Assembly: GCA_947034885.2 (NCBI GenBank)
Contig: OX344750.2
Location: forward strand, 40,534,821 to 40,598,820
From: Thuidium tamariscinum
Taxonomy: Eukaryota > Streptophyta > Bryopsida > Hypnales > Thuidiaceae
Direction: 5' to 3'
DNA: 64,000 nt
A program made the translations under genes and the position numbers. Below, piece after piece: positions 1,229 to 37,127 of the stretch (position 1 is its first letter; the number at the start of each line of letters is the position of its first letter). The notes under the pieces are model-generated. The model saw only the letters and a list, made by a program, of their open reading frames with translations, did not search any database and had not been told where the DNA came from.

Positions 1229-1264
1229 TCCTCAAAGCTACGGTGAAGCTTTCGATTATACGCA

Positions 1265-7125: not shown

Positions 7126-7371
7126 ATTCCATACTTCACGCCGGGATTTGCCATTTTTGCGCTCGAGCTCTACACATGCTTGGCATACTGTTATGTATGA
7201 GTATGTGTCCTTTTTTTTTAATAAAAAAAAACATTTTGTAAATGCATATAGGTTTGTAAATGTGTAGTTTGCTTGTTCTAGGGATTTAGGTTTTTAGAAA
7301 AGAACATTTTAGTCGTAGAACAATTAGTTAAGTTAACCATAGAGTAGCATAGTACTCAGGTAGCAATAGTT

Positions 7372-8868: not shown

Positions 8869-9169
8869 AGTGAAGTATTATAGGGTTGTGCTTTGATTTT
8901 GTGTTTTGGACAAGTGTGTCTTATTTTAGGATGTAATTTTTTGGTAATTAATGTAAAAAGCAATTTTCGGAAAAAATGTGCAAGTCGTGAGGATATTTTA
9001 TTGAAGATGTGAAATAGTATTATGATAGTTTAGGACATAACCACTTGAATAATTGTTCCACCAATTGAAAACCCTACCCAAATCAATATAAAATCAACTA
9101 TTTTCTGTTGTTTAGGAGTTAGGACATTGTAATGACAAATGTTTATCTATAAAAAAGAACCAATAATGA
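8869..9169. other. 3' flank of the coiled-coil gene, AT-rich
   Basis: No gene or repeat recognised; it presumably includes the 3' untranslated region. Confidence 0.4.
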
Positions 9170-13227: not shown

Positions 13228-13383
13228 GAGATAAGTTGGTGTTCAAAACACCAATAAGGAAACGTGGATGGATGAAGAAAGAAGTAATTATTCAACCCGA
13301 AGTTAATGCATGCAGCCAATGAAGGATGCAAGACGAAGAGCCTCAATGGAGAATGAATGTACCAATGCCTTGTGCGAGCACAG

Positions 13384-13390
13384 CTTTATA
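13384..13390 (-). promoter_or_regulatory. TATA box of the RING gene
   Basis: TATAAAG on the minus strand, 157 bp before the ATG at 13,227 and about 40 bp from the inner edge of the GC-rich array. Confidence 0.55.
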
Positions 13391-13429
13391 GGCGCGAGTA
13401 CGGGTAAAATCCAGGGCGCGTGCGAATCA

Positions 13430-13640
13430 GAGGCGACCACGGGTGGCGCCAGGGCGACTGCGGCTAGAGGCGACTGCGGCTTAGGGCGACCGCGCATTGG
13501 AAGGGGGCGACCGCGGCTGCGCATGGGGCGACTTCGGGTGAGCCGTGGTTGCCTAATCCTACAGTCGCCCCCACGCTAAACCGCTACCCGCGGTCGCCCT
13601 TACCCGCGGTCGCCCTACCCGCATGCGCCCTAAATTTTGC
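13430..13640. repeat. GC-rich array, GGGCGACCGCGG / CCGCGGTCGCCC, with orientation switch
   Basis: About a dozen degenerate copies of the CCGCGGTCGCCC motif. On the plus strand the left part (13,430-13,545) runs as GGGCGACCGCG and the right part (13,560-13,630) as CCGCGGTCGCCC, so the array flips near 13,550. It lies ~140 bp inside the inferred element end at 13,783 and upstream of the RING gene, as expected for subterminal repeats. Confidence 0.75.
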
Positions 13641-13775
13641 CACGTGGGCATCCAGGTGGCATTATTTTCCACGTGGTAATTTTTAAAAAGTCAAAGGTAA
13701 ATTTGACTTTTATGGACGTCGCGGAGGGTCTACTGGACGTTTCATGACGTCGCGATGTTGCAATGTTCGGCAGAA

Positions 13776-13791
13776 CAACCCTGGCTACGTG
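13776..13791. repeat. Inferred right terminus (CAACCCTG) and predicted target duplication of the left hAT element
   Basis: CAACCCTG at 13,776-13,783 mirrors the CAGGGTTG ends of the 17-kb element. The following 8 bp, GCTACGTG (13,784-13,791), would be the target duplication; its partner should lie immediately left of the element's other end, outside the window. MULE-like coding sequence begins directly after it. Confidence 0.55.
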
Positions 13792-16791: not shown

Positions 16792-17556
16792 TCCAAAGGA
16801 AAGAAGGGAATGAATCTTTCAAAGATAGAGTATTTAAATAGCATTGGTTGCATAAGAAGAAACGGCCTCCTAAAATAGATCTCGTAGTTCTTTCACATTA
16901 GATATTTGGCAAATCATGAGTAAATTCGAAAAATCTCAATCGCTCACCTAAAACTTTAAACTGCATATGTACATTCATTGATTTCAGTATATGGAAATCA
17001 AATATCAGACAAGATGAAGTATGAATTTTCAAATTCTAAACAACATATCTTTCTGAGAAGATATGAAGATATTATCATGATGTCAAATTCAAGGAACACA
17101 AAGGTACAACAAGTTCAATAATTTGAATCATAAATTGTAATTTAAACAAGTAGATTTCTCATGAATGAATGGTTCTCAACATAAAACTTTCTAATGATCT
17201 TGAAGACATAATTGTAGCTCATATAAATATTATATAATTCATTATCCATACAAATAGGACATGTGGCTGTACATATAATTCACTATAACAATGCACTGGG
17301 AAAAAACTAGTATTAACCATTACAAGGACAAGAACAACGTTAGGTAATAAAGGAGCCTTGAAGGACACATGTCAAACGTTGAGAATTTTTGAAATTTGAA
17401 AATGTATACACCCACTAGAGTATAAAGTAAAGCAATGCTGATTCTTGACGTCCCTTACTTTGTGATGTGGCGGATGCCTTTCCTATCTATAGTGATATTT
17501 ATATAATCCATGTGGATAGAAATGCAAAGATTATATATTTTTATATAGAGACCTAG
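16792..17556. other. AT-rich DNA 5' of the MULE gene
   Basis: No gene recognised. It probably includes the MULE promoter and terminal region, but I could not define a terminal repeat. Confidence 0.4.
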
Positions 17557-20047: not shown

Positions 20048-20055
20048 CTTAAACT
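20048..20055. repeat. Left 8-bp target-site duplication (CTTAAACT) of the 17-kb hAT element
   Basis: CTTAAACT lies directly before the CAGGG terminus and is identical to 37,120-37,127, directly after the other terminus. Eight bp is the usual hAT duplication length. Confidence 0.92.
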
Positions 20056-20086
20056 CAGGGTTGCTTCCGTCGCGTCACGTCCGTCC
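20056..20086 (+). repeat. Left terminal inverted repeat of the 17-kb element
   Basis: CAGGGTTGCTTCCGTCGCG matches the minus-strand reading from 37,119 (CAGGGTTGTCTATCCTGACG) perfectly over 8 bp and partially over ~30 bp. Confidence 0.85.
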
Positions 20087-20545
20087 GTTAGGATGTCCGT
20101 CCGCTGACGTGACGGGGAGCCGAGCGTCCGTCAGGATGAAATTCACGACAGAATCCGCGACAGAGGATGAAAAATCGTGACAGCAGTCGTGGACGCCCTC
20201 ACGGACCACCTCCGTGGACGGCCTGGAAGGACGTGCTCGGTGGACAGTTCCGATGGACGGTCCTAGCTGACTGGACGGCTTGGATGGACACTCTGGGTTC
20301 TGCGGACGGTCCGGATCCGGTGGACGGTTTTAGGGGACGGCCCGCTCGCGGGGTATGGACGGCCCCGATGGACAGAACGTCCAGTGGACGGCCTGGACGG
20401 ACGCCTCCAGATCGACGGTCTGGGTACGGTCTACGCTTGGGAAGGACGGCTTGGATTGAGAGGAAGGTTGGACGGCCTGGGTTCGATGGACGGCCTGGCC
20501 GTGCCGTCGACGGTTAGGATGGACGGCCTGGGCTCCGTGGACTGG
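20087..20545 (+). repeat. Left subterminal GACGGCC array
   Basis: Some twenty degenerate copies of GGACGGCCTGG or GGACGGTC on the plus strand, spaced roughly 10-35 bp. Long open frames here on one strand are a by-product of the repeat composition, not genes. It corresponds to the array at the other end (36,360-37,075). Confidence 0.8.
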
Positions 20546-20689
20546 AACTCTTTATTTGTAAGACTTAAAAGTCTGAGTTCATATTCGCAATCAAAATTTT
20601 CTCATTAGTCTATGAGGTTTAACCATCTCTCAAAAAATAATTTCCCATGGTTTTGTATTTTAGGCCTTCCATAGTCTAAATATAATATA

Positions 20690-21950
20690 TATTTTGTATT
20701 TAAAAAAAAGGTTTTGGTGGTTTGAATCAAAAAAAAGGAAATGGTTTGAATGAAAATAACGTTAATGGTTTGGAATTGTGAATAAAAAAAAATGTAAAAC
20801 TGGTTTTGAAAAAAAATGTGTTAATTGTTCGAATAAAAAAATTATGGAAATGGTTTGAATAAAAAAAACGTTAATGGTTTGAAATGTTGAATGAAAAAAA
20901 AATATAGAAAGGGTTTGGAAAAAAATGTGTTAATGGCTCGACCAAAAAAATTTGGAAATGGGTTGGGAAAAAAATGTGATTAGGGTTTGACTAAAAGAAA
21001 TATGGAAATGGGTTGAAATGTTGGAAAAACAAATTTAGAAATGGTTTGGAGAAAAAATGTGTTAATTGTTTGACTAGAATAAATATGGAAATGGTTTAGG
21101 GTAAAAAAATGGCCAAGTTTTGAGTAAAGAAAAACGGTAATGGTATAGGGTGTTAGAAAGAAAAATATAGAAATGGTTTGGAAAAAAGATGGGTTAATGG
21201 TTCAACTAAAAAAAATATGGAAATGGTTTGAATCAAAGAAAAAGAAAAAGGAAATGCTTTGAATTAAAAAAAAGTTAATAATTTGAAATGTTGAATACAA
21301 AAAAATATAGAAATGGTTTGGAAAAAAAATGTGTTCATGTTTCGACTAAAAAATATATGAAAATGCTTCGAATAAAAAAAATATATGGAAATGGGTTGAA
21401 TAAAAAAAAAGGCAATGGTTGGAAAGGTTGGAAAAAAACTTATAGAAAGGGTCGTGAAAAAAAATGTGTTAATGGTTTGACTAAAAAAAATATGGAAATA
21501 AGTTGGAAAGAAAATGTGTTCAGGGTTTGATTAAAAATAATATGGAAATGGTTTGAAATGTTGAATAAAAAACATTTAGAAATGGTTTGGAAAAAAAATG
21601 TTAATGCCTTAATGGTTAAGGCTCAAATTGGAAATAGTTTGAATCAATAAAATGGGAATGCTTTGAATAAAAAAGAACGTTGATGGTTTGAAATGTGGAC
21701 GACAAAAAAATATAGAAATGGTTTAAAAAAATGTGTTCATGGTTCGACTAATAAAAATATGGAAATGGGTTCAATCTAAAATATGGAAAGGGTTTGAATC
21801 TAACAAATGGAAATGGGTTAGGGTAAAAAAATGGTTATGGTTTGACATGTGGAAAAAAAAAATGTGGAAAAATGCGGTGGGAAAAACTTGGGTTAATGGT
21901 TTGATTAAAAAAATTCGAAATGGTGGGAATCAAAAACAAAAGCATATATA
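20690..21950 (+). repeat. AT-rich degenerate satellite (GGAAATGGTTTGAATAAAAA)
   Basis: Dozens of irregular 20-45-bp units of the form ATATGGAAATGGTTTGAA plus an A-run, many with GTTAATGGTT. The reverse complement of the same repeat forms a shorter block at 27,320-27,740, so the two are inverted around the RING gene. Confidence 0.85.
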
Positions 21951-22296
21951 CTTGTGGCATATGTAAAAAATAGAATTTTGGAAATTTTTAAAAGTGAACT
22001 TACAAAATCTACTTTAAGTGAAAGTATGGCATTGGATTTAAATGAACTTGTTGCACATACATTTCAAGCAAACGTATTGAGTATTCTTTTCATTTGTTCA
22101 TGGTTAAGTTTTCAGTTTAAGTGTTTAACAAACAATACAGTTGTACGAGAAAAATGAAAATGCTTCATTGCCCAAAAAATGTACTTTTGCAACATGAGCA
22201 ACAAACGCTCGTAAATGGTCGTCATAGCCAAATACTATTTACAATACTAATATACTATACATCCGTCTAATGGCCTAACTCATCACCAGAAGGTAT

Positions 22297-24660
22297 TCAA
22301 CCTTGTTCTGGTTCTACAATGCCTCTGCCTATACTATTTCTCAATAAATCTTGCAATCCTTCTCTAGATTGCAAACTGTTCAACGTAGCCACTACGGTCC
22401 GATCATATCGATCGTGCAAGTAGGAAGAAATGGTTGACAACATTTGCACCTCATTGAACGTAGTGTCTTCGATGAACCTCATTTGTGCCTCATGATCCAT
22501 GTCTTGGAGTATTCCGATAGGATTTCCACTGGAGTCAAAAACCACATTCTCTGGATGTGGTTGGCGCACGAACTCTTGTCGGTCCAAGTCCCAATGGCCA
22601 CCAGCAAGTTGGCCAAAAAATACTCGCCGCCCTGGATCGCCCGCACTAATCAGCTTCTTGCACACCTCCGTAATCTCCGCATCATCGTTCCACGGAATGT
22701 CTTGCACGCTGCGCACGGCGAGGTGTCTACTGTCATGGCCCCACTTCCACATCCATATCATGTCATTACCCCAACTCCCTCTATTCTCATCGCCAGGCAA
22801 GTTCTCTTCGTTCAACTCGAAGTGTGGGGGCATGTAATCCTCCAACCCAAATTGGACGTACAACCGCCGGTGCAAAGGAGCCTTGCATTGTGCGCACCGC
22901 TTTCTTGTGACCATGTGCGGAATGAGACATCCGGGGTGGTACATATGTCCACACGTTCCAAGGCAAAATCCACCCTCGGGTCCAAACGGTTCCATGCAAA
23001 TCGTACACGTCGTTCCATCCTTCACAAACTCGGGAACTATGGGCCACAGTAAGGGGGCATTGCCTTCTCTATCCACGGGCCCGTATCGATATCTCGCGGT
23101 GTTGAATTGGAAGTCTAGATGCGGATGCCCGTCCCAATCAATGCTTGCATTATCGCGATTTTGGGGCAATGTAACTGGAAACATATCCTCCAGTCGGGCC
23201 CACGATGTCAAGCCAAAATAACGTTGGCTACCATCTCTAAATTCTGCAGCTATTCTCCTGACTTCACGCTGCAGTTGTGCGACCTCGTTCATAGCCAAAG
23301 TGCATGCCAATCTCATGTTGCTCATGGCAAGCAACTTTTGCTCCCTCGTAGTTGACGTTTGTTGCAACAATCTATCCTTCATGGCATTTACAAATGCCAA
23401 CTCGTCCTGTAGTCCCTCCAAAGCCGCTGATACAGTCTCCATGTTGGCCTTGGCCTCATTGCACTCGCCCTCTGCACGCTCCGCTCGTGCCACAAGGGCA
23501 TCGTATGCCACGCGCTCAACGCTTATGAACTCTTGGCCCAATGCATCTGTTGATTGGGTTGCCGCATTTGAACTCTCACCACGAAAATGTGGTGTTGGGA
23601 ATATACCATGAGGCCGCACCCGGTGCACCGTCAATGGGTCAGCTGGCTCAATTAGACCATATGTGGCCCGCTCCACGACCTCATCCAATGGTGGAGTGCC
23701 ATCCGTGCTTTGGCGACGTTCACGTTCAAGCAAGTCAATGTTACTTGCTAGTAACTTAGCATTCGTTTCCTCCAAAGCCTTCACTTGTGCGTTGTGGGCT
23801 TGTACCTCCATCTCGTGCCTTCGCTCAGCTTTTGCACCATCCTCACGCAGCTTAATCACCAATGCACGTAATGCCTCTAATTCCCCATTTGCTCCAAATA
23901 CTTCATTAATTGTCATGGACGGGGGAATTGGGTGAATGGCGAGTGGCATAGGCTCGCTTGGACCGGCAATGGGCGCCTCCAATTCGGGAGCCACCGGATT
24001 TTGTTCGTTGGCGCCTTGAGGTGCATTGTTGACCTCCATGGGGTCCGCGGCCGCCGCTTCGTCCCCTTGTGCCCCAGCCACTCCTTCGCCTTCCAATTGC
24101 ACTTCAGGATTTGGTGGAATTCTATGGCTTTTAGTAGGGAAACGGCCGCCCCGTTGTTTAGCCGGATACGTGTTCCAATCCACGTCCTTGCCCAAAAAAA
24201 CCTCCGCATACGCCATTTGACACAATGCGAGGGTCCCATCCTTCTTCGAGAGGGTCCCCCAAAGTGCCAATGCCACCTCGGTCAACCGCTTCTTGAACGT
24301 TGGGTGTACGCAATACTTGATCAATGCAACGCCAGATCGCACTTGCGTCTCATTTCTCTCCCGTGGAAAATGGCGGTTGATGTGGGCCCAGTCCACGTAT
24401 CTCTGACATGTGGTGCGGGTCCATGGCTCAAGCGCCTGTTCCCACCCGTGCCCGGCCAAAACTTCTCCAGTGTTGAAAGTCGCCCAGTCTACAGTGCTCC
24501 TGTTCCCACGACGCCTCCTGTGTGGGGGTTCACCTTCATGGGTTACCATCTCCTGGTTTTCTACCACTGGGGGGTGATTTCCAGCAATTACCACCTCCTG
24601 GTTCTCTGCCATGGGGGGGTTCTCTACATGTAGTACCATCTCTCCAGGGTTTAAGGCCAT
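22297..24660 (-). CDS. RING-H2 and coiled-coil protein, cargo of the 17-kb hAT element
   Basis: 787 residues from the ATG at 24,660, intronless in the coding part and uninterrupted. The N-terminus carries repeated NPPMAEN/NHPPVVEN-like segments. The family N-domain follows at ~65-175, with PWTRTTCQRYVDWAHINRHF and DWNTYP. Then come an acidic/proline linker, coiled coils at ~270-330 and ~400-490, and a RING-H2 finger at ~550-595 (CTIC, CGHMYHPGC, CAQC). The C-terminal ~110 residues are helical and shared with the tail remnant at 10,753. The RING suggests an E3 ubiquitin ligase; the target is unknown. A CAG splice acceptor ends 5 nt before the ATG, suggesting a leader intron, and a TATA box lies at 24,862. 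It appears to be the intact version of the gene at 11,077. Confidence 0.82.
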   Translation of the reverse strand: MALNPGEMVLHVENPPMAENQEVVIAGNHPPVVENQEMVTHEGEPPHRRRRGNRSTVDWATFNTGEVLAGHGWEQALEPWTRTTCQRYVDWAHINRHFPRERNETQVRSGVALIKYCVHPTFKKRLTEVALALWGTLSKKDGTLALCQMAYAEVFLGKDVDWNTYPAKQRGGRFPTKSHRIPPNPEVQLEGEGVAGAQGDEAAAADPMEVNNAPQGANEQNPVAPELEAPIAGPSEPMPLAIHPIPPSMTINEVFGANGELEALRALVIKLREDGAKAERRHEMEVQAHNAQVKALEETNAKLLASNIDLLERERRQSTDGTPPLDEVVERATYGLIEPADPLTVHRVRPHGIFPTPHFRGESSNAATQSTDALGQEFISVERVAYDALVARAERAEGECNEAKANMETVSAALEGLQDELAFVNAMKDRLLQQTSTTREQKLLAMSNMRLACTLAMNEVAQLQREVRRIAAEFRDGSQRYFGLTSWARLEDMFPVTLPQNRDNASIDWDGHPHLDFQFNTARYRYGPVDREGNAPLLWPIVPEFVKDGTTCTICMEPFGPEGGFCLGTCGHMYHPGCLIPHMVTRKRCAQCKAPLHRRLYVQFGLEDYMPPHFELNEENLPGDENRGSWGNDMIWMWKWGHDSRHLAVRSVQDIPWNDDAEITEVCKKLISAGDPGRRVFFGQLAGGHWDLDRQEFVRQPHPENVVFDSSGNPIGILQDMDHEAQMRFIEDTTFNEVQMLSTISSYLHDRYDRTVVATLNSLQSREGLQDLLRNSIGRGIVEPEQG

Positions 24661-24861
24661 AGTACCTGCACACAATGCCACAACACGGTATGTATGTACA
24701 GATGACTATGCTCTGCCTCCTGTTGCGTGAGGGCAACTGGAATGTGGCAAAGCAATAGCCAAATGCTTGACTTCCTCCCGAATTGCAATGCAAAGCTTTT
24801 TTCAAGCTAGGACAGAGCAACTCAAGAGAGAAAGCAAGGTTAATTGTGGCTGAATTTGGGA

Positions 24862-24868
24862 TTTATAC
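24862..24868 (-). promoter_or_regulatory. TATA box of the RING gene in the 17-kb element
   Basis: TATAAAT on the minus strand, ~200 bp before the ATG at 24,660 and ~75 bp inside the GACGGCC array that starts near 24,940. Confidence 0.6.
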
Positions 24869-24939
24869 TCCCCATTACCAAGCCTCGTTAGGAGTGTTAA
24901 TTTGTGTCTAATCACATCGCCATGCACCACCTGGAGCCG

Positions 24940-25712
24940 TTGATGCGGACGGCCATCGACGGCTGGGGCGTCCAGGGAGCGTCGACGGAGGTTCGGGAGG
25001 CCGTCGACAACTTCGGGATGACGTCACAGAGGCCGTCCACAGGTCCAGCGCCGTCAACGAGTTCGAAAACACTCATGAGTTCGAAAATCCATAATTACTC
25101 CGCCGAATTGCAAATTCGATGGCCAAAAATGGCTCTTCGTGACGGCCTGCCCGTGGTCTTGGACGGCCACTGTTCCGCTGTGGACAGCCTGCCCGGACAG
25201 GTCGACGCTCCGGCCCGCAGCCAAATTCGTTGCGGACGGCCTGCCCAGGTCCTGGACGGGCCCGTGTTGCTAGACGGTTTTCTGGACGCCCTCCGTCCCC
25301 GTGACGGCCTGCCCAGGGCCTCGACGGCCAGGGAGGACTGACCCCTCTATTGCCCCTCCGGAGGGTAAATGTAAAAAATTCCCCCCTAATTTGTGCCGAT
25401 TAAATTTTAGATTTCAACACGTCCCCTAGCTAAATCGAGGTCTCTGATTCCAAATAAGAATTCAGAATTTGCAAAAAAGAATTTGTGTGAAAAATAAAAG
25501 AAATTCCAGGGTTTTCTACAAGGGTAAAAAAGGGGCAATAGAGGGGTCAGTCCTCCCTGGCCGTCCTCGACAGGCCCGTCTTCCTGGACGGTTTTAGGGA
25601 CGCCCTCCGTCCCCGTGACGGCCTGCCCTGGTCCTGGACGGGCCCGTCTTCCTGGACGGTTTTCTGGACGCTCTCCGTCCCCGTGACGGCCTGCCCAGGT
25701 CCTGGACGGGCC
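24940..25712 (+). repeat. Internal GACGGCC array with ~68-bp higher-order units, split by a MITE
   Basis: Irregular GACGG motifs from 24,940 pass into ~68-bp units running from GACGGCCTGCCC to CTCCGTCCCCGT (about 25,237-25,325 and 25,563-25,712). A MITE at 25,327-25,561 interrupts one unit. The array lies upstream of the RING gene on the minus strand. Confidence 0.8.
25327..25561. mobile_element. MITE of the AATTGACCCCCTC family with 30-bp perfect inverted ends
   Basis: Positions 25,327-25,356 and 25,532-25,561 are perfect inverse complements (ends GCCAGGGAGGACTGACCCCT). The inside holds the family core CAGAATTTGC and CTAGCTAAATCGAGGTCTCT. Related copies are at 48,319, 54,011, 58,695 and 58,957. 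CCTCGAC occurs close to both outer ends and may be the target duplication. Confidence 0.85.
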
Positions 25713-27319
25713 CAATAGGTGGGCCCAATATATACTGAATTTCAATTAGGCAGGTGGAATCCAATTAGACAGCCAAGATCCAATTACGCAATTGGTATTC
25801 ATTTAGGCAGTTGAGATGCAATAAGTTGTAAGACAGCAGAATTTTAATGTGGGTGAACTGGTGAAGATTGCCAATGCAGTACCTGTATACTGTAATTTTT
25901 ATTGGAGCTCAGTGAGTTAACATTCACAGCTTGCATTTCTTTTTAAAAAAATTTGGGATTCATTCATGGTTGTGACAAGTGTGTGACTCATTCAGATCTT
26001 GTATTTCTTTTTAAATTTTTTTGGGATTCATGATTGTGACAAGTGTGTTAGCCATGTATGCATGGTAGGAGGCAAAGATTGCACTTATTTAAATTAAGAG
26101 TTGATTTGCCTTTTTCGTGTATGTCTTTAGATGAAAATATTTTTAGTTTATTTTTCAGTCAAGGAGAAATAGATGAGGAATCTAATACAAGTTGTTTCAT
26201 ATTTTTTGGAAGAAAAATTGAATTAATTATTAATTTTCAAACACAATTTGTCATAGGACCCTATTTGTGATCAGTAAGCCTTGAAAATCTATACATGCAC
26301 AGTTTCTAAAAGAATCTGGTTTGGTGAATAAACTAGTAATGCAACATGTAAAAAATGGTTTGAAATGGTTTCTAAATGTGTCCCTTTCAAAATCTGAAAT
26401 GAATTCTTCAATTAATCATTATTTCAAAACAATTTCACATTTGAAAGAAGGTAGTTTAACAACCATTTTTTATTTTGAATAAAATTAGTAGACACCTATA
26501 AGTACACTTAGTTACGATTGAATCCATTGTAACTCTAAAACCATCCATTCATATAGTAAAAATCAAATCTTAGCATGCTTCAATATAATCCACAATTAGT
26601 TTCCTCACAATGAGCTTTCTAATTCAGATTTCAGACCCTCCTATAGTCCTATTAAGCAGATAAAAAAGCCTGCATAGTTTATTAACCTCCGTGTGAGCTT
26701 CCTACCATAATAGTTGATTTGAGAGCAAGAGGTCCTTGAACTTCTTCATTTTAAATGTTAGAATGGATTTGCAGACTTACTGATACTTGTGTTTTTAAAC
26801 ACAATCGGCTTATTAAATTCCCTAAGTTTTCCTTATTATATAAATGAATGTGAATATGCTCTTGTGCCTTTAAATTGGTTTTAAATATTGCATTAATTAG
26901 GATTGTATACTATAGTTTAATTTCTCTATTGTGTGCTTTGTTTTCTTATAAATGGTGAAATATAAATAGTTGTAGCTTTGATTTTTGATTTTCAAACTCT
27001 TTAGTGGCATATAGATAGCATATGCTGTGCGTTTCACCATGTTCTTAGTTCATCAAAATCCTTGAAGCTCACATGTTTCCTTGTATACAATGTTTTTGAT
27101 CTTCTCAATATTTTGTAATTATGAAATGTAGAAAAAAAATAGGGTGTTCAAAAATAGTCCTTCAAAGAATTTACAAAAGAAAATAGGGTACTCTAAAATA
27201 CACTCCGGTAGCTTTATTCTACTAATAGGGAGGGAAAAAAACATGAGAAGGACATAAATACCCCCCCATTAAATACCCCATTATCGCACGTGGTTACCAA
27301 AAGATAAAAGGGGTGAACC
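25713..27319. other. AT-rich gene-free DNA inside the 17-kb element
   Basis: No gene recognised. A short direct repeat of TTCTTTTTAAA...TTTGGGATTCAT with flanking GTGACAAGTGTGT occurs at ~25,935-25,985 and ~26,005-26,050. Confidence 0.5.
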
Positions 27320-27740
27320 CCCAAGTCTATTATTCAAACCATTCCCATTTTTTTTATTCAAACCTTTCCCATTTTTTTTATTCAAACCATTCCCATTTTT
27401 TTTATTCAAACCATTTCCACATTTTTTTCCAAACCGAATCATTTCCATATTTTTTTAGTCGATCCATTAACCCATTTTTTGGTCCAAATCCCTTCTATAT
27501 ATTTTTGCCCAACACCCGAAACCATTAACGTTTTGCTTTATTCACACCACTTCCATTTTGGGGATTCAAACCTTTTCCCTATTTTTTTTAATTGAACCAT
27601 TAACACATTTTTTTCCAACCCATTTCCACATTTTTTTTATTCGAACAGGGCTCGACAATTTCTTTCCAAACCCTTTCTATATTTTTTTGGGGTAACTTTT
27701 TTAACCCTTTGACGTGTATTTTTGGTTCAAACCATTAACA
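27320..27740 (-). repeat. AT-rich satellite, inverted relative to 20,690-21,950
   Basis: Units of TTTTTTATTCAAACCATTCCC repeat; this is the reverse complement of the satellite at 20.7-21.95 kb. Confidence 0.85.
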
Positions 27741-28966
27741 CACTTGCGGAATTCTAACTCTTTCTTCTAGGGTTTATCATACACTTCGGCAAAGAGAGGA
27801 TTAGAGCGGTTTAGGGTTCCGCAGAAGAGTCTGAATTCTGAAAATTGGTTGGTGCCTACTAACGGAGTCTTGCTTGCCAGTGCCCCCGTCCTAAACTCCT
27901 AATTAGTACTCGCCATTCACTTATACTTTCATAACTCATAGTTTCATAACTCATAAGTAGAGTACATGACTACATGACCAGAATATTATGCAATATAGTA
28001 ATATACTAATATGTACATGTAGTACTAATCTAATTTCCTAAAAAATACATGCCTAGTCGGATGGCTCCCGAATTTAAAATTGAGAAGTTTAAATCCCTAC
28101 ATATCCGTAGGGCAACTTCTAAAATTTAGGGTCCATCACTTCAGCCATTCTCGATATGAGATGAAGCACTGGAAGGCAATGTAAAATTTTAGCCGTGTAC
28201 ATTACACACTACCCACCAACAAGTTTAGGATCATCCAATTCTGCCATTGAAACAAATTTTGCATAATATAATCAAGCATACCAAATGTGGATTTCACATA
28301 AGTCAAATTCAGTATTTGGTGAATTGTTTCATTCAAAACTCATGGTTTAGCATGATAATTGATTATAAAACATTGGTGATGAATTAGCATTAATTTGCAA
28401 AGAGGAGATATGTAGGAAACATCCATATGCACATCTTTCATACCAAAAAACATCCTAGATTCCTAGTAAGTTACAACAATATAATTGGGTTGAAGAATTC
28501 AATTAGGCATTTTATGTGACCCCATTTTGTAAAATAGATGTATGTACGCTTGAATTAGATTTAGGCAAAGTCATTGTACGGAAATGATTTAAGTTCCTCA
28601 AGGAGTTATAGTGTGACCATCAAATAGCAAATGCTAATTAAGCCGGATTAAATTATTAAAATTAGCTCCTATTTCCTAAATTTACGGGGGAGAATGAAAT
28701 TAGATGGAAAGGGAGGAAGTAGAGCTTTTTGACGACACAACTGAGAACGGATACGCATCAACCGAAGAGGTATGTGTTTAGACTAGAACCAATAAGTTTA
28801 ATCATTTCATGTTATTTCTTTTAATTACTTCAAAATTTGCAAAATTAGATTGACGCTAGGAAAATAAAGATCAATTACCGAATACAAATTATAATGCACT
28901 TCTTAAGTTATTAAATTACTAAACTAGACATTTTACCCTCATTTACGCAAAAGTAAAAAGGAACTT
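27741..28966. other. Gene-free DNA inside the 17-kb element
   Basis: No coding sequence or clear repeat recognised. Confidence 0.5.
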
Positions 28967-29000
28967 AAACCCTAAACCCTAAACCCTAAATCCTAAAACC
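28967..29000 (+). repeat. Short interstitial telomere-like run (CCCTAAA)
   Basis: Three perfect CCCTAAA units and two variants, the plant telomere repeat type. Too short to be a telomere; it lies ~200 bp before the array of the kinase-like gene. Confidence 0.8.
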
Positions 29001-29199
29001 TTCGGTTGGGCAAGGGCTTTAGGCTGGGTTTTTGACCTTCTCAAAATTCAGTGTCAACCCTTAGATGGGCGGTTTCTGGCCTGTTACCTTATTACCTTGT
29101 AGAGGAATTTCAGTTGCACGAGGCTTGCCATTAAGTCTTCGCTGGCATCTTCACCGCCCTGTGCTTCCCCGACGATCCCCTTAATGGTTCAGAATTCCC

Positions 29200-29605
29200 G
29201 GGACGCCCTGTGGGGTCACGTGGACGGCCTCGTTCCACGACGGACCCCCGAATTCCCAGGACAGCTTGTGCGTCCTGTCGACGGTCTCGCAGTTCCTCGA
29301 CGGTTTCCTGGACGGCTTCGAAATTCCCGGGACGGATGGGTGCGTCCCGTCGACGGCCTCATCGTCCTCGACATTCCCCTCGACGGCTTCCCAATTCTGA
29401 GGACGGCGAGCGCGTCCCCTCGACGGTCCCCACGACGGCTTCGAAATTCCCGGGACGGATGGGTGCGTCCCGTCGACGGCCTCATCGTCCTCGACATTCC
29501 CCTCGACGGCTTCAGCGCGTCCCCTCGACGGTCTCGGAGTTCCCGACACCCCTCGACGGCTTTCGAGTTCCTTGGACGGATCGGCCGTCCATGCGACGGC
29601 TCGCC
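29200..29605 (+). repeat. Internal CGACGGCCTCG array upstream of the kinase-like gene
   Basis: Degenerate GACGG(C/T)(C/T)TCG units alternate with ATTCCCGGGACG, including a near-perfect ~100-bp duplication (about 29,316-29,390 and 29,430-29,510). The motif belongs to the same dialect as the ends of the element. Open frames on both strands here are compositional. Confidence 0.8.
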
Positions 29606-29611
29606 AACGAC

Positions 29612-29619
29612 TATATAAG
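29612..29619 (+). promoter_or_regulatory. TATA box of the kinase-like cargo gene
   Basis: TATATAAG directly after the array. Transcription would begin near 29,640, giving a leader with a small intron at 29,761-29,812. Confidence 0.65.
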
Positions 29620-29760
29620 GTGGGCCAGGTCCCCCACTCTGCACGAGTCTCTCCTGCTCTGACGGTGCTCTCTTGCCCTGGATTGGTTGCAGTCCTTGCT
29701 TGGGAGCGCGGGTGCTTGCGAGGAGGCTCGGCTGAGGAAGGGGGGATAGTTTTCACATTT

Positions 29761-29812
29761 GTGAGTACTGAACCCTAATTCCTTGGTTTTACCATCGCAT
29801 ATTTTTTTTCAG
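29761..29812 (+). other. Predicted 52-nt intron in the 5' leader
   Basis: It opens GTGAGTACTG and ends in a pyrimidine tract plus TTTTTTTTCAG, one base before the ATG at 29,814. The hAT transposase gene has a similar 58-nt leader intron. Confidence 0.6.
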
Positions 29813-29813
29813 A

Positions 29814-31475
29814 ATGGACGGGCGAGGTGCGTCGAAGCGCAAGGTTGATGAGTGGTTTTCAGGCATCGGAGATCCTGTTGGTGAGCAGTCTCCAGAATCC
29901 ATTGACTGCATATCAGAGGCAGTATTGGCCGGAGAAGGGGTCGATGGTGCAACTAGAGGAGAATCTTCGGGGGCCAAGAAAAAAAAGAGCAGGCGGAGGC
30001 ACAAGGCTACGAATACAGACGACTGGCCAAGGAAGGCTGCGACCAGGAAAGTGCAGGAAGTGGCATTGGATTTTTTGGAGCAATATACGATTGCTCAATT
30101 GAATACGACCTACGTCTCGCGTGGATTGCAAGGGGTGGAGACAATTAAAAAAAAATTCACCCACATGTTTTGGACAACAATGGGCGAGGATGAGTGGCTT
30201 GAAGATCGCACAAAGGAACACTTCCGTCGTTGGCTTGACGAACAAGTGCAAACTTGTGTTTTCAACATCGCCCAAGTCGCCGCATCGGTAAAGGGCTTCA
30301 AACGAGATGTAGCGCCGAAGCAACAAGCATTGCATTTGTTGCACAAAAAGGTGTATTGGTGGCATGACGCAATGCGAGCGCTGTCTTCCAACAATATCCG
30401 CTCTGCCCCATGGTTTCAGCAGAGCCAAAGCTTGTCCCTAGGCCAAGCGGGTGCGGGAGGAGTGGTATTTCTTGAACGAGGAGTGGTGGTGGTTCCATTG
30501 TCAGGCCACAACAAACAAGGGGGGCACGGGAGGGTGCGTAAAGTGAGCCTCCAAAATTCAAGGCACATTCCCCCCATGATGGAATTGGCGGGCAAGACAG
30601 CCCTATATGTGGATCAATTGAAGAAGTCGCGGGAGAAGTTGTCCATCGAGGCTTTGGTTTGTCCATGTAATCATCTAGGGGTCATAAAATTTTTTGCTAT
30701 AAATGACATGACCATGGAGTGTTATTCTCAATGGTGGAATGGAGGAACATTGGGAGCCATGTTCGCATTGGACCAAAAAAACCGAGATTATGCTGAGATC
30801 GGGGAGCTTGCCTACCATGCAACTCCATAGACGATGCAAGAAGCCAAAAGACTCTTGGCTTATCGTAGAAACCGCACCGAGCTTGCATGGGCGTTAATTT
30901 GCATCGTGGATGCGGTGCAACAATCTTCGGTGCTCCACAACGACATCACGCCAGAAAACATCATGTTGCATTTTCCGAATGATGATGGGCGAACAGTGTG
31001 GATTGGGCTATGTGATTGGGGAATGGCTAGTCGTATCAATGAAGAAACCCATTCTTTGTACCAGTTTCAATGTGCAAGCCAAATGCGGGCTACACGTCAG
31101 AAACGTTGGTGGGTGGCCTCTGAATTGATGTATGTTCCTGGAGAGGCGGGCACTTCGGTATCCCCCACTCGTGCAGATGGGGCACCGTGTGTTAGTATAC
31201 ATACAGACGGATATGCTGTTGGGAAGCTTGCGGAGAAGATATGGAAGAAAGACCGCGAAAATACGGAAATGCTTCCCGACCATACAGCGTTTGGTACATT
31301 TCAAGCCACATTGGGCGAATTGTGCAAAGAGGACCCACTACAACGACGCACGGTAACGTACGCCGTGGGACGAATTAGTGGCGCCCCCTTATTTTGGACT
31401 CCACCCGTTGATTGCTACCGCGAGGCCCGCAAGGAGCAAGCACTTCTACAAGAACAAGCAAGGAATGAAGATTAG
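29814..31475 (+). pseudogene. Protein-kinase-like gene with one in-frame stop, cargo of the 17-kb hAT element
   Basis: A frame of ~553 codons runs from ATG 29,814 to TAG 31,473, broken only by a TAG at 30,828-30,830 (codon 339); the codons after it continue the same frame. Landmarks are a nuclear-type basic patch near 50 (KKKSRRRHK), a glycine-rich loop GGHGRVRKV (~236), LAGKTAL as the candidate VAIK site, a catalytic loop HNDITPENIMLH (~375) keeping Asp and Asn, CDWG for DFG (~399), and WWVASEL for APE (~432). It aligns with the gene at 1,265 through most of its length, and its active-site motifs are closer to canonical than that copy's. The stop lies in the variable stretch before the catalytic loop. 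It may be a pseudogene, or read-through might occur; neither is shown. Confidence 0.75.
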
Positions 31476-31691
31476 AGAATAGTATTTTAGTGGCAATGTA
31501 ATCGTAGACGTACCTTAGTACTTGCTTTTACCACAGTATAGTCCACGAACTTTGTGTCACTGAATTTTGTACTAACTCCTTTTTGAAATAAATATATGTA
31601 AATCTTTTTGTTCCATTCGAGTATGATTCCGGTGAGTGGATTTGTGAGTAGTTCTGTCCCTTCGTAAATTTTGGACTGAATGCCATGTTAA

Positions 31692-32610
31692 CCCCTAAAG
31701 GACCACGGCCGTTTTTCAACCCAAAACCACTCAAAACTGCCATTTTTGTTCCATTCATCCATGAAAAACAAAAAAACTAAATTTTTAGAATCTAACCATA
31801 GGATCTTGAACTTTACTTAACTAAGATGATGTGGTGAAAATTTCATGAAGTTTGACCGTATAGATAGGAAGATATGAGCATTCAAAGTTGGAAAACAAAG
31901 TTTTCTTAAACACTAGTTTGCAACTTCAAATGACTTTGTCCTCCATTTATGTAATCTTTTTGCACTACAGACCTTGAATTAAAATTTTTTTATTGAGAAA
32001 TTGAGCTAAGAGCTTAGGAAAAAAAATTCACAAAATAAAGACTTTTTGTCATTCTTTAAAAAATTGTCAAGTAGATGTAGGTCCAAGATTGAAAGAAAAA
32101 CTAAATTGCAAATATCTCATAGATGGAATTGAAACACAATAATCCCAATGGTGAGATTGTTCTAGAAAACAAAATCAACCTTGTCCAACAATTTTTTTTT
32201 TTAAATTGTGGAAATTGCATTCACAAATGAATCCTAGAAGTTATTTTTTCAAGAAGATGCTTAGATTGCCCGAAAAACAAGATTGTTCATAACTTTCACA
32301 TTACTAATCCAAATGGAATGAATCAAAGCTTTACTTGTAGACAAAAATATAATCTATAAGAAAAAAAAATTATTTTTTTAATTTTGAAGTTTCTGTAGAT
32401 TTTTTTTCTGCCCGGCAACATAAAAATAATGTTTATGATGGCATAACTTTTGCTCCCGGTCACCAATTGAAAAAAAATGAATATTTCCACGGAGCTAATC
32501 AGTTTTTTTATCTTATGTGAAAATTTCAATAAAATTCATTAAAAATTGAAGTCACAAGTACTTGCCCTAATTCTTAAAGTTCCCCGAGGGGACTCTTGGT
32601 CCTTTAGGGG
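31692..32610. mobile_element. TTAA-flanked nonautonomous DNA element (919 bp), piggyBac-like ends
   Basis: TTAA stands on both sides (31,688-31,691 and 32,611-32,614). The ends are perfect 14-bp inverted repeats, CCCCTAAAGGACCA. A TTAA duplication with CCC-starting ends is the pattern of piggyBac-type elements. There is no coding sequence. An inverted relative lies at 45,981-47,486. Confidence 0.85.
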
Positions 32611-32995
32611 TTAATTCAGTACTTTCAATCATTTTCTCCATATTCCAGATTACATTTGTTTTCTTGTACATGGCAAAATTCATAATGATCTCAAAATATC
32701 CAAGCATGTAGGTAACCAGTTTCGAAGAATGAATCCAAATTTAAGAGTATAGAACACATGGCAAACGACAAAGCAAATATTTCCATTTCTTGGGACAAAT
32801 ATCCATAAATGGATCCGTTGTTGCGTTGTAGAATTTGTGACATGTGAAGATAAAAAATTTCTACCCATGCGCCCTACATGAGCACAGGAAGCATGTGTAG
32901 TATTTATAATTAATGCCGAATTTCACATGCAAGGTATTCAGCCTTACACAATATTACATAAGATGACATGGAGACATTTTTTTCCCTAGATGCTC

Positions 32996-35900
32996 TCAAC
33001 GTCTTGCACGTGTACGATTAGGAGCCATGCTCCTTGCAGCAGCCTCTCGCGTGGTTGCTTGATTGTCTTGAGGTGCAGGTGGAGGACCTCTACGAGTCCC
33101 TCTATAATCACTATCTCCCGGAACTTCACCATCTTCACCTATACTAGGACCCATGGATTCATCATCATGATTGGACGTTGCCCTACCGACTTCGCTTGGT
33201 GAGTTGTCAGGGCTGTCTGAGCCTTCACCTACTATAGAAGCCAATCTGCGGATTGTTCGCCCTCCTACTCCATCTCCAGCGGTATCCACACTGGGCCCCG
33301 TCGGTCCAGGGAGAAGACCTTCGCGGAGAAATGGTATACTCGCCGCTTCTTCCCTTCTTAGCCTTCTACGTGTTCTTCTACTCACTCGTTCATTGGTAGG
33401 GCTTTCTTCACGTGGCCGCGGGCGTCGATTAGTAGTGCGTGTAGGCGGTGCAACGGGTTGTTCTGAGGATGGAGGTGCATTCCTTCGCTCGGTCATATTT
33501 AGAGTTGGGAAGAGACCGGCCAATCGTGTACCGACTGATGGAGTTTCTTGGTTGGGGCGGACTCTAGAAGATGAAGGCCGTGCTGAAATTTGGACGGGTG
33601 GATCATCCAAGCTAGGCGCTTGTGGTCGCACGCCGATCGTGTCTCGAAGCAATGTGCGAAAGTCTATCTCGACACCAATGGGGGATCTGTGGCTACGAGT
33701 GTTCCGCGCCACTCGGGGATCTGTGGCAACGACCTCATCTTCGCCTTGTCTTTCTACCACAACGACATGTTCATGTCTCCGGGTACGCATTTCTTCTTCA
33801 ATCGGCCCTATAACCGGCGAAGGTGGGGCTTCAACCCCTTCGTTTTGATTTCCACCACTTGACCCCGCAATCGATGTACGTGGCATCCATGACGGACTGC
33901 CATCATTTCCCCCGTTGTCATTTCCATCCTCATCTCCCCCGTGGTCATTTCCATCATTATCCGCGCCATCAAAGTCAAATACGGACTCGTCAATTAGGGG
34001 ACCCCTTTCTTGCCTTTCACCCAAAGGCCGAAATGGTGGATCATCATCGCCATTGGAACTGTCGTCTGAGTCATCGTTGTTAGCGTCTGACATAACCGAA
34101 CCACGATCCAAGCCATCTGATTCGGTTGTCATGGAATCTTCGGACAACATGTTCTCAGTGTACCATCGTGCTGCATCCGCCGCACCCCTTTCCCTGAGAG
34201 TCCTCGAATTGGTATAAATGTAAACCAATTCCTCCGCGCGCTCAGATGTCAATCTGTTGCGAGACTTGCTGTGGACAAATGAATACATGCTCCAATTGCG
34301 TTCGCATGATGATGCGGAACATACTTGTGCGAGGATCCTTCTTGCAATAGGTGCAAGCGTATGAGCAGCGGCTCCGAGAAGATCCCACCATTCATGCGGC
34401 TCCAAATTCAAAGTATTCACATCGGGAAGTCCAGCGAACATGCCTCGGCGGTCTCGAAAGGATTGGTACTCAAACAAAGCGGCTGCATATCCCAACCCTC
34501 CAACTGCCAATTTGCGTAGTACTCTAAGAATGGCCTCCTTTGCCTCGTTATCGTCTATTAGTATAATTTCATCAAGGAGGAATGGATTGAGCAGGGCAGC
34601 TGCGTAGTGCAAATCAGTCTTCATCAAATCCCATCGTTCGTAAAACGCGTATTCAACACGGTCCGCATAATTTGCCTCCAATGAAAATGGTCGATTCCTC
34701 AAAGCCAAAACATGCTTTTCTAGCTTCTTCATCACGATCCATGCTTTGCCCATGACCGGATGTTTTCCATCAAACTCTCGAAGAGCCACCAACACAGGCT
34801 CTACCATATGCACAAAGTTGAGACACCTCCTCCAGAACTCGTCCTTTCGAACCCTACGTCGAACCTTTTCTGCCTTATTGTGTATTGCAGCGTTCGAGGA
34901 CCTCACATATTCGTTCCACTGCGGATCATGGACTGTAGATTCCACGGCTTCCTTGACCTCGGCCAAACGCTCGATCATGAGGAACATGGTCGCAAAACGT
35001 GTCTCAATGGGATTCTTCAACATGAGGTTAGGAGAATGTCGTCGGAAAATGGCGAGTGGCATGTGATGCGTGCGAATGAATTTCACGATTGATTTTGCTT
35101 TCTTCACCATTTTGACCACCCAAAGTTGCTTGCCCCAATCTTCAAGTAGAAGGTCAAGTGCATGCGCGGAACAACCTTGGAAATATAGGTGAGGGAATTC
35201 GCGAGTAATTTGAGTACCAGCCAAACGCATGTTTGGCGCATTGTCCGTACAAACTTGCACCACATTCTGTCCCCCCACCGCGTCAATGTAATCGATCATG
35301 CGATTAGCCACATAAACAGCGTCTTTGCTTTCGCCTGTAGTGTCCACCGATCCCAAAAATACTTCTCCACTCGTGCACGACAACATTACATTGATCAATG
35401 GCCGATGGTTGACATTGTCCCATCCGTCAGAACATATAGTGACACCGTACTTGTGGATAGGCCCCTTTGTCTTCTCCGCTACCAGTGCAGCCACTTCCTC
35501 CTTTGTTGATGTCATGAGCTTCGTACGTATGGCATTGTAAGGTGGAGGTTTGTAAAGAACTCTGGACTCGGAGGTTGATTTCACGGCATCCACAAAAGCG
35601 GGGTGTCTCACCACATTGAATGGGATATTTGCTTCGTAGAAAAACTTTGCCCACTTCTTGTCTAGTACTTGCTTTTTGGATGTGTCCATCCCTTCTTGTA
35701 CGGATAATTGCCTCAGCGGTCGACTATGGGTCGAAGAAGGGACAGGCGCCTCTGATGATCGAACTTGAGAATTTTGGCCCAAAGTATTTCCTCCCCCTCC
35801 ACTAATTGAGATTGAAGCATTGGGTAATTCTTGATCACGTACCACCCTCGTTGGATTCGATGACGGTGATGTCACTTCCACATCATGTTCCTCTTCGTCT

Positions 35901-36130
35901 TCGGAGACCGTAGGAACATTCCCCCCACAATTGAAAAACATAGCCTTCATTGCTGCACTGGCCTTGTTGCACATTCTCACTCCGGGGAGGGTGTCATTTC
36001 GTCTATAACCCAAGTGGAAAAGCAAGCGATCCTTGCGGTAACTAATCTTCGTTTTGCAGAACTTGCATTCCACTTTCCCATCCTCTTGTAGCCTGTACCA
36101 GGGTTCCCATTGTGTCCTCCCCCCTCCCAT
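32996..36130 (-). CDS. hAT-superfamily transposase with long acidic tail
   Basis: 1,044 residues from the ATG at 36,130, uninterrupted. A BED-type zinc finger lies at ~8-60 (WEPWYRLQEDGKVECKFC, then H and C ligands). A DUF659/RNase H-like part begins ~170, with CSDGWDNVNHRP (first Asp, ~231) and VCTDNAPNM (second Asp, ~292), followed by GCSAHALDLLL, the hAT CxxH motif. The C-terminal dimerisation region (~585-660) has SSCERNWSMY, carrying the expected Glu. The three catalytic acidic residues are thus present. Beyond it come ~380 residues of disordered sequence with an Asp/Gly/Asn-rich stretch, absent from typical hAT transposases. Predicted role: cutting and pasting the 17-kb element by binding its ends and subterminal arrays in the nucleus. 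Confidence 0.9.
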   Translation of the reverse strand: MGGGRTQWEPWYRLQEDGKVECKFCKTKISYRKDRLLFHLGYRRNDTLPGVRMCNKASAAMKAMFFNCGGNVPTVSEDEEEHDVEVTSPSSNPTRVVRDQELPNASISISGGGGNTLGQNSQVRSSEAPVPSSTHSRPLRQLSVQEGMDTSKKQVLDKKWAKFFYEANIPFNVVRHPAFVDAVKSTSESRVLYKPPPYNAIRTKLMTSTKEEVAALVAEKTKGPIHKYGVTICSDGWDNVNHRPLINVMLSCTSGEVFLGSVDTTGESKDAVYVANRMIDYIDAVGGQNVVQVCTDNAPNMRLAGTQITREFPHLYFQGCSAHALDLLLEDWGKQLWVVKMVKKAKSIVKFIRTHHMPLAIFRRHSPNLMLKNPIETRFATMFLMIERLAEVKEAVESTVHDPQWNEYVRSSNAAIHNKAEKVRRRVRKDEFWRRCLNFVHMVEPVLVALREFDGKHPVMGKAWIVMKKLEKHVLALRNRPFSLEANYADRVEYAFYERWDLMKTDLHYAAALLNPFLLDEIILIDDNEAKEAILRVLRKLAVGGLGYAAALFEYQSFRDRRGMFAGLPDVNTLNLEPHEWWDLLGAAAHTLAPIARRILAQVCSASSCERNWSMYSFVHSKSRNRLTSERAEELVYIYTNSRTLRERGAADAARWYTENMLSEDSMTTESDGLDRGSVMSDANNDDSDDSSNGDDDPPFRPLGERQERGPLIDESVFDFDGADNDGNDHGGDEDGNDNGGNDGSPSWMPRTSIAGSSGGNQNEGVEAPPSPVIGPIEEEMRTRRHEHVVVVERQGEDEVVATDPRVARNTRSHRSPIGVEIDFRTLLRDTIGVRPQAPSLDDPPVQISARPSSSRVRPNQETPSVGTRLAGLFPTLNMTERRNAPPSSEQPVAPPTRTTNRRPRPREESPTNERVSRRTRRRLRREEAASIPFLREGLLPGPTGPSVDTAGDGVGGRTIRRLASIVGEGSDSPDNSPSEVGRATSNHDDESMGPSIGEDGEVPGDSDYRGTRRGPPPAPQDNQATTREAAARSMAPNRTRARR

Positions 36131-36156
36131 TGCTCCCACTGGTTCTTCACTTGAAA

Positions 36157-36214
36157 CTGCACAAACAAAACAGGTTAGTATTCAGTTTGGATGTGATGTG
36201 GAAATAACACTTAC
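36157..36214 (-). other. Predicted 58-nt intron in the transposase leader
   Basis: On the minus strand it reads GTAAGTG from 36,214 to TTTGTGCAG at 36,157. Splicing would place the ATG at 36,130 27 nt into the second exon. Confidence 0.55.
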
Positions 36215-36344
36215 TGCTTTCACAGCAAGTGTTCCTCCCACACACTCTTCTTGGACTTCACTCTAGTGCAATGGCTGTGTGCCAACCAGGTCATAAGAGC
36301 AGAGATCAGCAAGGAAAAGTGACCTTCAAATACACGGCTTGTGC

Positions 36345-36350
36345 TATATA
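36345..36350 (-). promoter_or_regulatory. TATA box of the hAT transposase
   Basis: TATATA on the minus strand, 10 bp from the inner edge of the right subterminal array, so the transposase promoter abuts likely transposase-binding sites. Confidence 0.6.
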
Positions 36351-36359
36351 CTGTGAAGG

Positions 36360-37075
36360 CCTGGCAGCAGTCGTCCAGTCGACGGCCTGTCCGTTGGCGC
36401 ACTGTGGACAGCCGCGGACGGGACGTCGTGGCCGTCCCCGCAGACGCTCTGGCCGTCCAGCGGACGTCCCGCTGTCCAGACGACGGCCTGGCCGTCCCCG
36501 CAGCGTGGACGGACTCTGGACGCCGTGACCGTCCGCTGAACAGAAAACTGTCGAGGCGACGGCCTGGCCGTCCCCGCTGCGTGGACGGACTCTGGACGCC
36601 GTGACCGTCCGCTGAACAGAAAACTGTCGACGCGACGGCCTGGCCGTCCCGTCGAAGTGCACAAGCCGCGGACGCTCTGGCCGTCCCGTCGAAGTGCACA
36701 AGCCGCGGACGCTCTGGCCGTCTCCGCTGCGTGGACGGACTCTGGACGCCGTGACCGTCCGCTGAACGGAAAACTGTCGAGGCAACGGCCTGGCCGTCCC
36801 GTCGAAGTGCACAAGCCGCGGACGCTCTGGCCGTCCCCGCTGCGTGGACGGACTCTGGACGCCGTGACCGTCCGCTGAACAGAAAACTGTCGAGGCGACG
36901 GCCTGGCCGTCACGCCTAAACCCTAAAGCCGCAGACGCTCTGTCCGTCCACGCGACGGCCAGTCGTCGAGGCGGCCGACAGGCCGTCTGCGCGCTGTCGA
37001 CGGACTTCATCCGCGCTGTCGACGACGCCGTCAGCATTCGGGACGGCCTCTGACGCGTCCTGCCGCGTCATGACA
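36360..37075. repeat. Right subterminal GACGGCC / GGCCGTC array with higher-order units
   Basis: Dense GGACGGCC/GGCCGTCC palindromic motifs. A ~76-bp unit running from GCGTGGACGGACTCTGGACG to ACTGTCGAGGCGACGGCC recurs near 36,503, 36,579, 36,730 and 36,841. A second unit, GTCGAAGTGCACAAGCCGCG, occurs three times. Long frames across it are repeat artefacts. Confidence 0.85.
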
Positions 37076-37087
37076 TCCCGACAGGAA

Positions 37088-37119
37088 AAGCCCACGTCAC
37101 GTCAGGATAGACAACCCTG
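37088..37119 (-). repeat. Right terminal inverted repeat of the 17-kb element
   Basis: Read on the minus strand from 37,119 it begins CAGGGTTGTCTATCCTGACG, matching the left end. Confidence 0.85.
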
Positions 37120-37127
37120 CTTAAACT
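37120..37127. repeat. Right 8-bp target-site duplication (CTTAAACT)
   Basis: Identical to 20,048-20,055, directly after the CAACCCTG terminus. Confidence 0.92.

Follow-up and report, generated by a model that had tools for sequence, protein, structure and literature searches.

A 17-kb hAT transposon family of the moss Thuidium tamariscinum carries a kinase gene and a RING gene that may serve in its own regulation

Background

Autonomous cut-and-paste transposons usually carry little besides a transposase, and Ac, at about 4.6 kb, has a single gene. Here we describe a 17,064-bp hAT element of the moss Thuidium tamariscinum in which the transposase gene is accompanied by a gene for a RING-H2 protein and by a protein-kinase-like gene. 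It lies in a stretch of 64,000 nucleotides (hereafter the window) on contig C2, which is 47.9 Mb long and belongs to a genome of 363 Mb in 19 contigs. The element resembles Ac/Ds in the C-terminal dimerisation domain of its transposase, its short terminal repeats, its 8-bp target duplication and its subterminal motif arrays; it differs in being 17 kb long, in having three genes and in carrying arrays upstream of the inner genes as well. A likeness of another kind is offered by TnpA of En/Spm, an accessory factor that attaches to repeated motifs near the element's ends and counteracts methylation, although En/Spm belongs to the CACTA superfamily, makes a 3-bp duplication and encodes other proteins.

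The VANDAL elements of Arabidopsis are members of the MULE superfamily, whereas the present element has a hAT transposase. The anti-silencing VANC proteins of these elements target short motifs within fast-changing tandem repeats, which lie in noncoding sequence, including that upstream of a transposon gene, and differ between related elements (PMC5735166, PMC10398659); their domains are DUF1985/DUF287 (PMC5735166). VANDAL elements and the present element are both multi-gene plant elements with element-specific motif arrays in their noncoding regions. They are alike in how they may work and not in membership, and any anti-silencing function of the present element would be assigned by analogy. 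Neither DUF1985 nor DUF287 was matched by Pfam at E <= 1 in the scanned proteins of this element family or of a second multi-gene family that also reaches into the window.

Large elements with additional genes have been described in fungi. ToxhAT is a hAT-type element of about 14 kb in which a hAT-like transposase and other genes lie between inverted terminal repeats; these repeats are 74 bp long and about 92% alike, and target duplications were not found (PMC6737239). ToxhAT provides a precedent for a large hAT-like element with extra genes. In the present family the terminal repeats are 8 bp long, duplications are perfect, near-identical copies are numerous and the accessory genes recur; neither a kinase nor a RING gene is named in the available text on ToxhAT (PMC6737239). 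The fungal Starships, which are classified by their tyrosine recombinase and reach about 700 kb, are likewise large DNA elements with several extra genes (PMC12134995). They differ from the present element in that the latter has a hAT transposase and constant genes; no tyrosine-recombinase captain was found by Pfam at E <= 1 in its three genes. Our search of the open-licence literature, with preprints and most subscription papers outside its scope, returned no hAT element with a kinase and a RING gene or with plant cargo. To our knowledge there is no earlier case of a hAT element with a kinase and RING pair and matched promoter arrays.

Results

A first-pass annotation of the window, made from the sequence alone, had proposed a unit of 17,064 bp with matching ends and an exact 8-bp duplication, and both the window sequence and copies fetched from elsewhere in the genome bear this out. 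The complete hAT element (20056-37119) is flanked by two exact CTTAAACT octamers, and its terminal inverted repeats, CAGGGTTG and CAACCCTG, are 8 bp long and perfect (8/8 positions). The two CTTAAACT sites, on whose physical linkage the annotation had made its proposal depend, lie with both ends on the one 47.9-Mb contig. Between the ends lie the RING gene (minus strand), the kinase gene (plus) and the hAT transposase gene (minus); their positions, with those of all other features, are collected in Table 1. The window contains 16,367 CANGG...CCNTG pairs at distances of 200 bp to 30 kb, and only the pair at 20056-37119 has an 8/8 duplication. Because about 0.25 such pairs (16,367 x 4^-8) are expected by chance, the duplication is weak by itself and further copies are decisive. 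Comparison of the first with the last 1000 bp gave no ordinary long inverted repeat beyond the octamer (best local score 38, against a maximum of 35 in 200 shuffles); the related subterminal sequence that had been claimed for the two ends stands in the form of shared GGACGG arrays. The hAT features found comprise a transposase with a dimerisation domain, short terminal inverted repeats and an 8-bp duplication in 8 of 11 copies (the window's and seven of ten others).

Other copies with the same ends, whose existence the annotation had left to be checked, were found in number. Copy counts from the genome protein searches are lower bounds, and a gene unlisted at a locus may still exist there; frameshifts were not reported, most copies are known as protein matches only, and the listed copies are biased toward intact ones because only the best candidates were scored. 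The genome has at least 57 RING copies (98-100% identity), at least 78 kinase copies (97-100%) and at least 44 transposase copies (99-100%). Among the matches listed, as judged by eye with the window copy counted, 45/57, 50/78 and 35/44, respectively, are free of stops. Merging the lists yields at least 85 loci, 33 of them with all three genes listed. Partial sets among the listed loci consist of kinase and RING (18), kinase and transposase (7) or RING and transposase (3), while single genes are listed as kinase (20), RING (3) or transposase (1). Spacing is regular: 40 of the 44 listed transposases have a listed kinase at 3,924-3,927 bp, and 51 of the 57 listed RING genes have one at 6.0-7.3 kb, each time in the element's orientation.

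Ten further copies, drawn from the 56 other RING copies listed, were fetched and aligned. All ten align to nearly the full length of the element, with main stretches 98.5-99.5% identical and lower values (91-96%) in two arrays, the right one and one on the left, and all share its inner structure. Seven have both ends and a perfect 8-bp duplication of their own, giving eight different duplications with that of the window; two have both ends without a duplication, and one is missing the right end. Both ends lie within 20 kb of one contig in nine of the ten. Across the 11 aligned copies, the RING frame is open in 10 and the kinase and transposase frames in 9 each. An empty site, also called for in the annotation, was found for a different copy: the joined flanks of the copy at C2:45525755 align unbroken (55/60 bases) to an adjoining tandem unit that lacks the insert and contains the target once, which makes it a related empty site. 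Eight joints, those of all duplication-bearing copies, were compared with the sequence fetched, and the remaining seven, among them the window's own, gave none there.

The unit has moved whole and duplicates 8 bp of its target; the three genes stand at dozens of places and are open in most of the listed copies; the proposal that the hAT transposase, the RING gene and the kinase gene travelled as one 17-kb unit is upheld by these copies. We regard it as virtually certain that the window element is a copy of a mobile three-gene 17-kb hAT family. As the three-gene unit is found at dozens of places with low divergence among the copies compared, its large size and extra genes have been no bar to spread. 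By eye, copies of this first family are clustered at C6 19.6-20.2 Mb, C3 41.6-41.9 Mb and C9 0.05-0.2 Mb, as local hAT hopping would give.

Divergence was measured among ten complete copies (the window's and nine others, the copy without a right end being left out). Pairwise differences range from 0.36 to 0.67%, with a median of 0.56%, and this near-identity suggests recent activity. The changes are chiefly C-to-T and G-to-A. Per site and copy, C-to-T changes amount to 0.98% at CG, 1.14% at CHG and 0.20% at CHH, an excess at CG and CHG that fits the pattern expected after plant-type methylation of these contexts. Change rates per site and copy are highest in the arrays, at 0.42-0.68%; the remaining parts for which they were determined have 0.10-0.26%. 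The ratio of nonsynonymous to synonymous divergence (dN/dS) between copies is indecisive, shared changes being too few.

The Pfam scores of the transposase are well over the cut-offs (DUF659, 124.6 bits against 34.7; Dimer_Tnp_hAT, 38.3 against 21.4). Its four closest database relatives are 57-71% identical, and the named matches come mostly from land plants; no contig encoding it was found among prokaryotic genomes. A quick tree built from the window protein and 52 of the 70 database hits places it in one clade with relatives P0005-P0008 (support 100). Transposase P0008 and a relative of the kinase, P0078, come from the same source (jgi) with the same value, 6480, for the longest contig listed, and because of this shared source and identical value the two genes probably lie together on one contig.

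The kinase gene in the window is interrupted by one in-frame stop, which the annotation had not noted. Relatives of its protein number eight at 56-87% identity, one of which is a partial frame, with a further four at 30-39%, and a Pkinase match at E <= 0.01 was obtained for all 13 members of the family. K261 (the lysine of an A-x-K motif) and E279 are invariant in the alignment, while H375, N382, D401 and G403 are nearly so. Catalytic roles are presumed for these six residues, and kinase activity is no more than likely. The RING protein is built of an N-terminal helical domain of about 100 amino acids, long predicted helices (likely a coiled coil), the RING-H2 domain and a conserved C-terminal part. 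Four database proteins are related to it at 42-52% identity, and the eight zinc ligands are invariant in all five sequences; a profile of the family finds the RING domain of RNF24 in the Protein Data Bank (PDB) (4.8e-6). NCBIfam has no family for the transposase, the RING protein or its homolog in the second family, RING2, and for the kinase gives only matches far below cut-off. A viral origin was considered for both accessory genes and rejected: no relatives appeared in two viral-contig scans for the kinase and in one for the RING protein.

The element contains 59 occurrences of the motif GGACGG/CCGTCC, of which 54 fall within four arrays that make up 17% of its length. Outside both elements, 33 kb of window sequence contains two. 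Two of the arrays are terminal, the right one being at the same time upstream of the transposase gene, and two are internal, one upstream of each accessory gene. Compared with 200 sequences simulated from the composition of the array concerned by a first-order Markov model, all four contain more motifs than the simulated maximum, the kinase array by a narrow margin (Table 1). A TATATAA sequence near 29612 comes just after the kinase array. All four arrays are kept in the other nine complete copies. Among the ten copies there are 15 gap runs of at least 10 nt; 13 fall within arrays and the remaining two in noncoding sequence in the middle of the element. AT-rich repeats of about 24 nt flank the RING gene together with its upstream array in inverted orientation, and that array itself contains a perfect 35-nt inverted repeat (25323-25357 and 25531-25565).

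A second multi-gene element family occupies positions 1-13783 of the window and 7.7 kb to its left. It contains distant homologs of both accessory genes (KIN2 and RING2) and two further proteins that share the RING protein's N-terminal domain (N-domain), one of them encoded left of the window; the domain thus recurs in three proteins of this family. Its right end is the same octamer as the element's, since three copies, of the 62 RING2 copies listed, diverge right past CAACCCTG; within the 7.7 kb read to the left, neither a hAT transposase nor a left end was found. At least 78 KIN2 matches were scored in the genome, 72 at 89-100% identity and six at 71%, the latter probably belonging to a third element family that has this accessory kinase too. 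A listed KIN2 accompanies 51 of the 62 listed RING2 copies in the right orientation, the distance being 8.8-11.3 kb in 49 cases; by contrast, the control, a first-family kinase within 25 kb, applies to 3 of the 62, the window's included. The second family has arrays of its own. Exact GCGACCGCGG occurs eight times in the window part of the second family and is absent from the first element and from all other window sequence, and four genes of the family have groups of this type upstream: KIN2 (group at 900-1033), the gene of the N-domain protein at 7348 (group at 6933-6984, with mismatches permitted), RING2 and the gene of the N-domain protein left of the window. Both the main motif and the N-domain sequence differ between the two families.

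Table 1. Positions of the element, its genes and arrays, and second-family features in the window
Feature	Position	Strand	Remarks
Left target-site duplication CTTAAACT	20048..20055	.	identical to 37120-37127
Left terminal inverted repeat CAGGGTTG	20056..20063	+	8/8 against right end; left end common to 10/10 other fetched copies
Left GGACGG array	20056..20690	+	15 motifs in 20056-20700; simulated mean 1.1, maximum 4; 3 gap runs >=10 nt
AT-rich repeats, ~24 nt	20700..21940	+	repeat families D1-D5; inverted relatives at 27320-27750
RING-H2 protein gene, 794 amino acids	22297..24681	-	Pfam zf-RING_2 5.9e-6, 26.9 bits against cut-off 27.3
GGACGG array upstream of RING gene	24900..25720	.	13 motifs; simulated mean 1.2, maximum 4
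GGACGG array upstream of kinase gene	29150..29610	.	7 motifs in 29150-29650; simulated mean 1.55, maximum 6
Protein-kinase-like gene, 553 codons	29814..31475	+	Pfam Pkinase 2.2e-7, 31.0 bits against cut-off 31.7, second half
hAT transposase gene, 1047 amino acids, open	32996..36139	-	DUF659 3.5e-36, Dimer_Tnp_hAT 1.2e-9
Right GGACGG array, upstream of transposase gene	36220..37119	.	19 motifs; simulated mean 1.3, maximum 6; 8 gap runs >=10 nt
Right terminal inverted repeat CAACCCTG	37112..37119	-	present in 9/10 other fetched copies
Right target-site duplication CTTAAACT	37120..37127	.	identical to 20048-20055
Second-family kinase homolog (KIN2)	1247..2914	+	30% over 475 amino acids against element kinase
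Second-family N-domain protein	7348..8862	+	no RING found (Pfam); 33% over 125 amino acids against element RING protein
Second-family RING homolog (RING2)	11083..13242	-	same layout; 40% over 255 and 33% over 141 amino acids; >=62 scored copies
GCGACCGCGG-type array upstream of RING2	13432..13613	.	matches with <=1 mismatch
Second-family right end CAACCCTG	13776..13783	-	3 other copies align up to octamer and diverge directly after

Discussion

The best overall explanation, to which we assign a probability of roughly 0.6, is that the element is a recently active three-gene hAT DNA transposon with a self-encoded regulatory or anti-silencing module. Since kinase and RING form a constant pair, they look like accessory genes and not variable cargo, and we consider it probable that they belong to the element in this sense and are not passengers. 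That the two extra genes act through the arrays, in regulation or against silencing, is a more tentative proposal, which we rate at somewhat below even odds.

In outline, the element's transposase would bind the GGACGG arrays at the two ends, cut beside CAGGGTTG and paste the unit into a staggered 8-bp target. The same arrays upstream of each gene could switch kinase, RING and transposase together. The RING protein may recognise the element's arrays, its N-terminal domain doing the recognition, and might, as a ubiquitin ligase helped by the kinase, remove or change silencing factors there, an anti-silencing role that we infer on the model of VANC in VANDAL elements; alternatively, ubiquitination and phosphorylation might tune the transposase. 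More conjectural still, and in our estimate about one chance in three, is that the element represents an undescribed class of large multi-gene plant hAT elements, each with its own kinase and RING/N-domain module matched to promoter arrays, which would coordinate the genes and counter silencing by phosphorylation and ubiquitination, module and motif co-diverging between families in one genome. The recurrence of a kinase and RING pair with matched arrays in two families of a single genome amounts to a natural experiment on transposon self-regulation and escape from silencing.

Several findings weigh against a self-encoded module. The kinase of the window copy is interrupted, and stops occur in 28 of the 78 listed kinase copies (by eye). 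The kinase stands alone at 20 of the 85 listed loci, for which incomplete lists may account. The Pfam scores of the window's RING and kinase are slightly below the curated cut-offs, and the structural models of the two proteins are of low confidence (mean predicted local distance difference test score, pLDDT, 52 and 54.5, respectively); a fold search with the RING protein returned mostly RING domains, none at E <= 0.001, and left the N-terminal domain unmatched. Enrichment of the kinase array is modest, at 7 motifs against a simulated maximum of 6. Nor are the motifs wholly exclusive, as GCGACCGCGG with one mismatch occurs four times in the first element and GGACGG twice in the second. The ratio of nonsynonymous to synonymous polymorphism (pN/pS) among copies gives no clear sign of selection (0.46 for RING, 0.85 for kinase and 1.14 for transposase, from single-copy changes), and the database relatives may be other element families of the same species. 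A regulatory role for the kinase and the RING protein would also be unnecessary if recognition of the arrays fell to the transposase by itself.

This last point leads to the strongest of the rival explanations, a large hAT element whose arrays serve only to bind transposase and attract methylation, while the kinase and RING proteins act elsewhere, for example in selfish drive or in stress responses that favour the carrier. The subterminal repeats of Ac bind transposase and attract methylation; subterminal arrays are expected for a hAT element, and two of the four arrays here are terminal. The other two are internal and upstream of the extra genes, and the differences between the families in main motif and N-domain alike also speak against this explanation, which we hold to be unlikely.

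Less probable again is that host kinase and RING genes were captured by a hAT element and are carried without benefit, which comes close to the earlier description of the two genes as unrelated cargo reminiscent of giant elements of other kingdoms, such as those of fungi. Plant DNA transposons often capture host genes; the pN/pS values betray no strong constraint, and the window kinase has its stop. That description is countered by the constant linkage of the kinase to transposase and RING genes among the matches listed (40/44 and 51/57 at the expected distance), by database relatives that are long, in most cases full-length, and 42-87% identical, and by the recurrence of the pair in the second family at 30-40% identity; the arrays of the element's own motif upstream of each gene likewise tell against passengers. 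A composite, in which separate hAT elements with their own arrays inserted into one another and left the inner arrays as remnant ends, is just as improbable. It is favoured by the presence of four arrays of one motif, two of which are internal and adjoin genes, by the AT-rich repeats that stand in inverted orientation at 20.7-21.9 and 27.3-27.75 kb, and by the description of ToxhAT as such a composite (PMC6737239). Against it, no other CANGG...CCNTG pair in the window has an 8/8 duplication, all ten other fetched copies share the inner structure, and the second family repeats the array-before-gene layout with a different motif. An old origin by fusion may nevertheless lie behind the element.

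Neighbouring open reading frames

Three further regions of the window contain open frames. At and to the right of the second element's end, a chain of frames runs on the minus strand (13633-16818), the four scanned pieces of which have no Pfam match. Frames at 41507-42997 gave no clear Pfam or PDB match in the part scanned (42211-42600). The frame at 39506-40105, also without a Pfam match, encodes a product that resembles ParB by eye.

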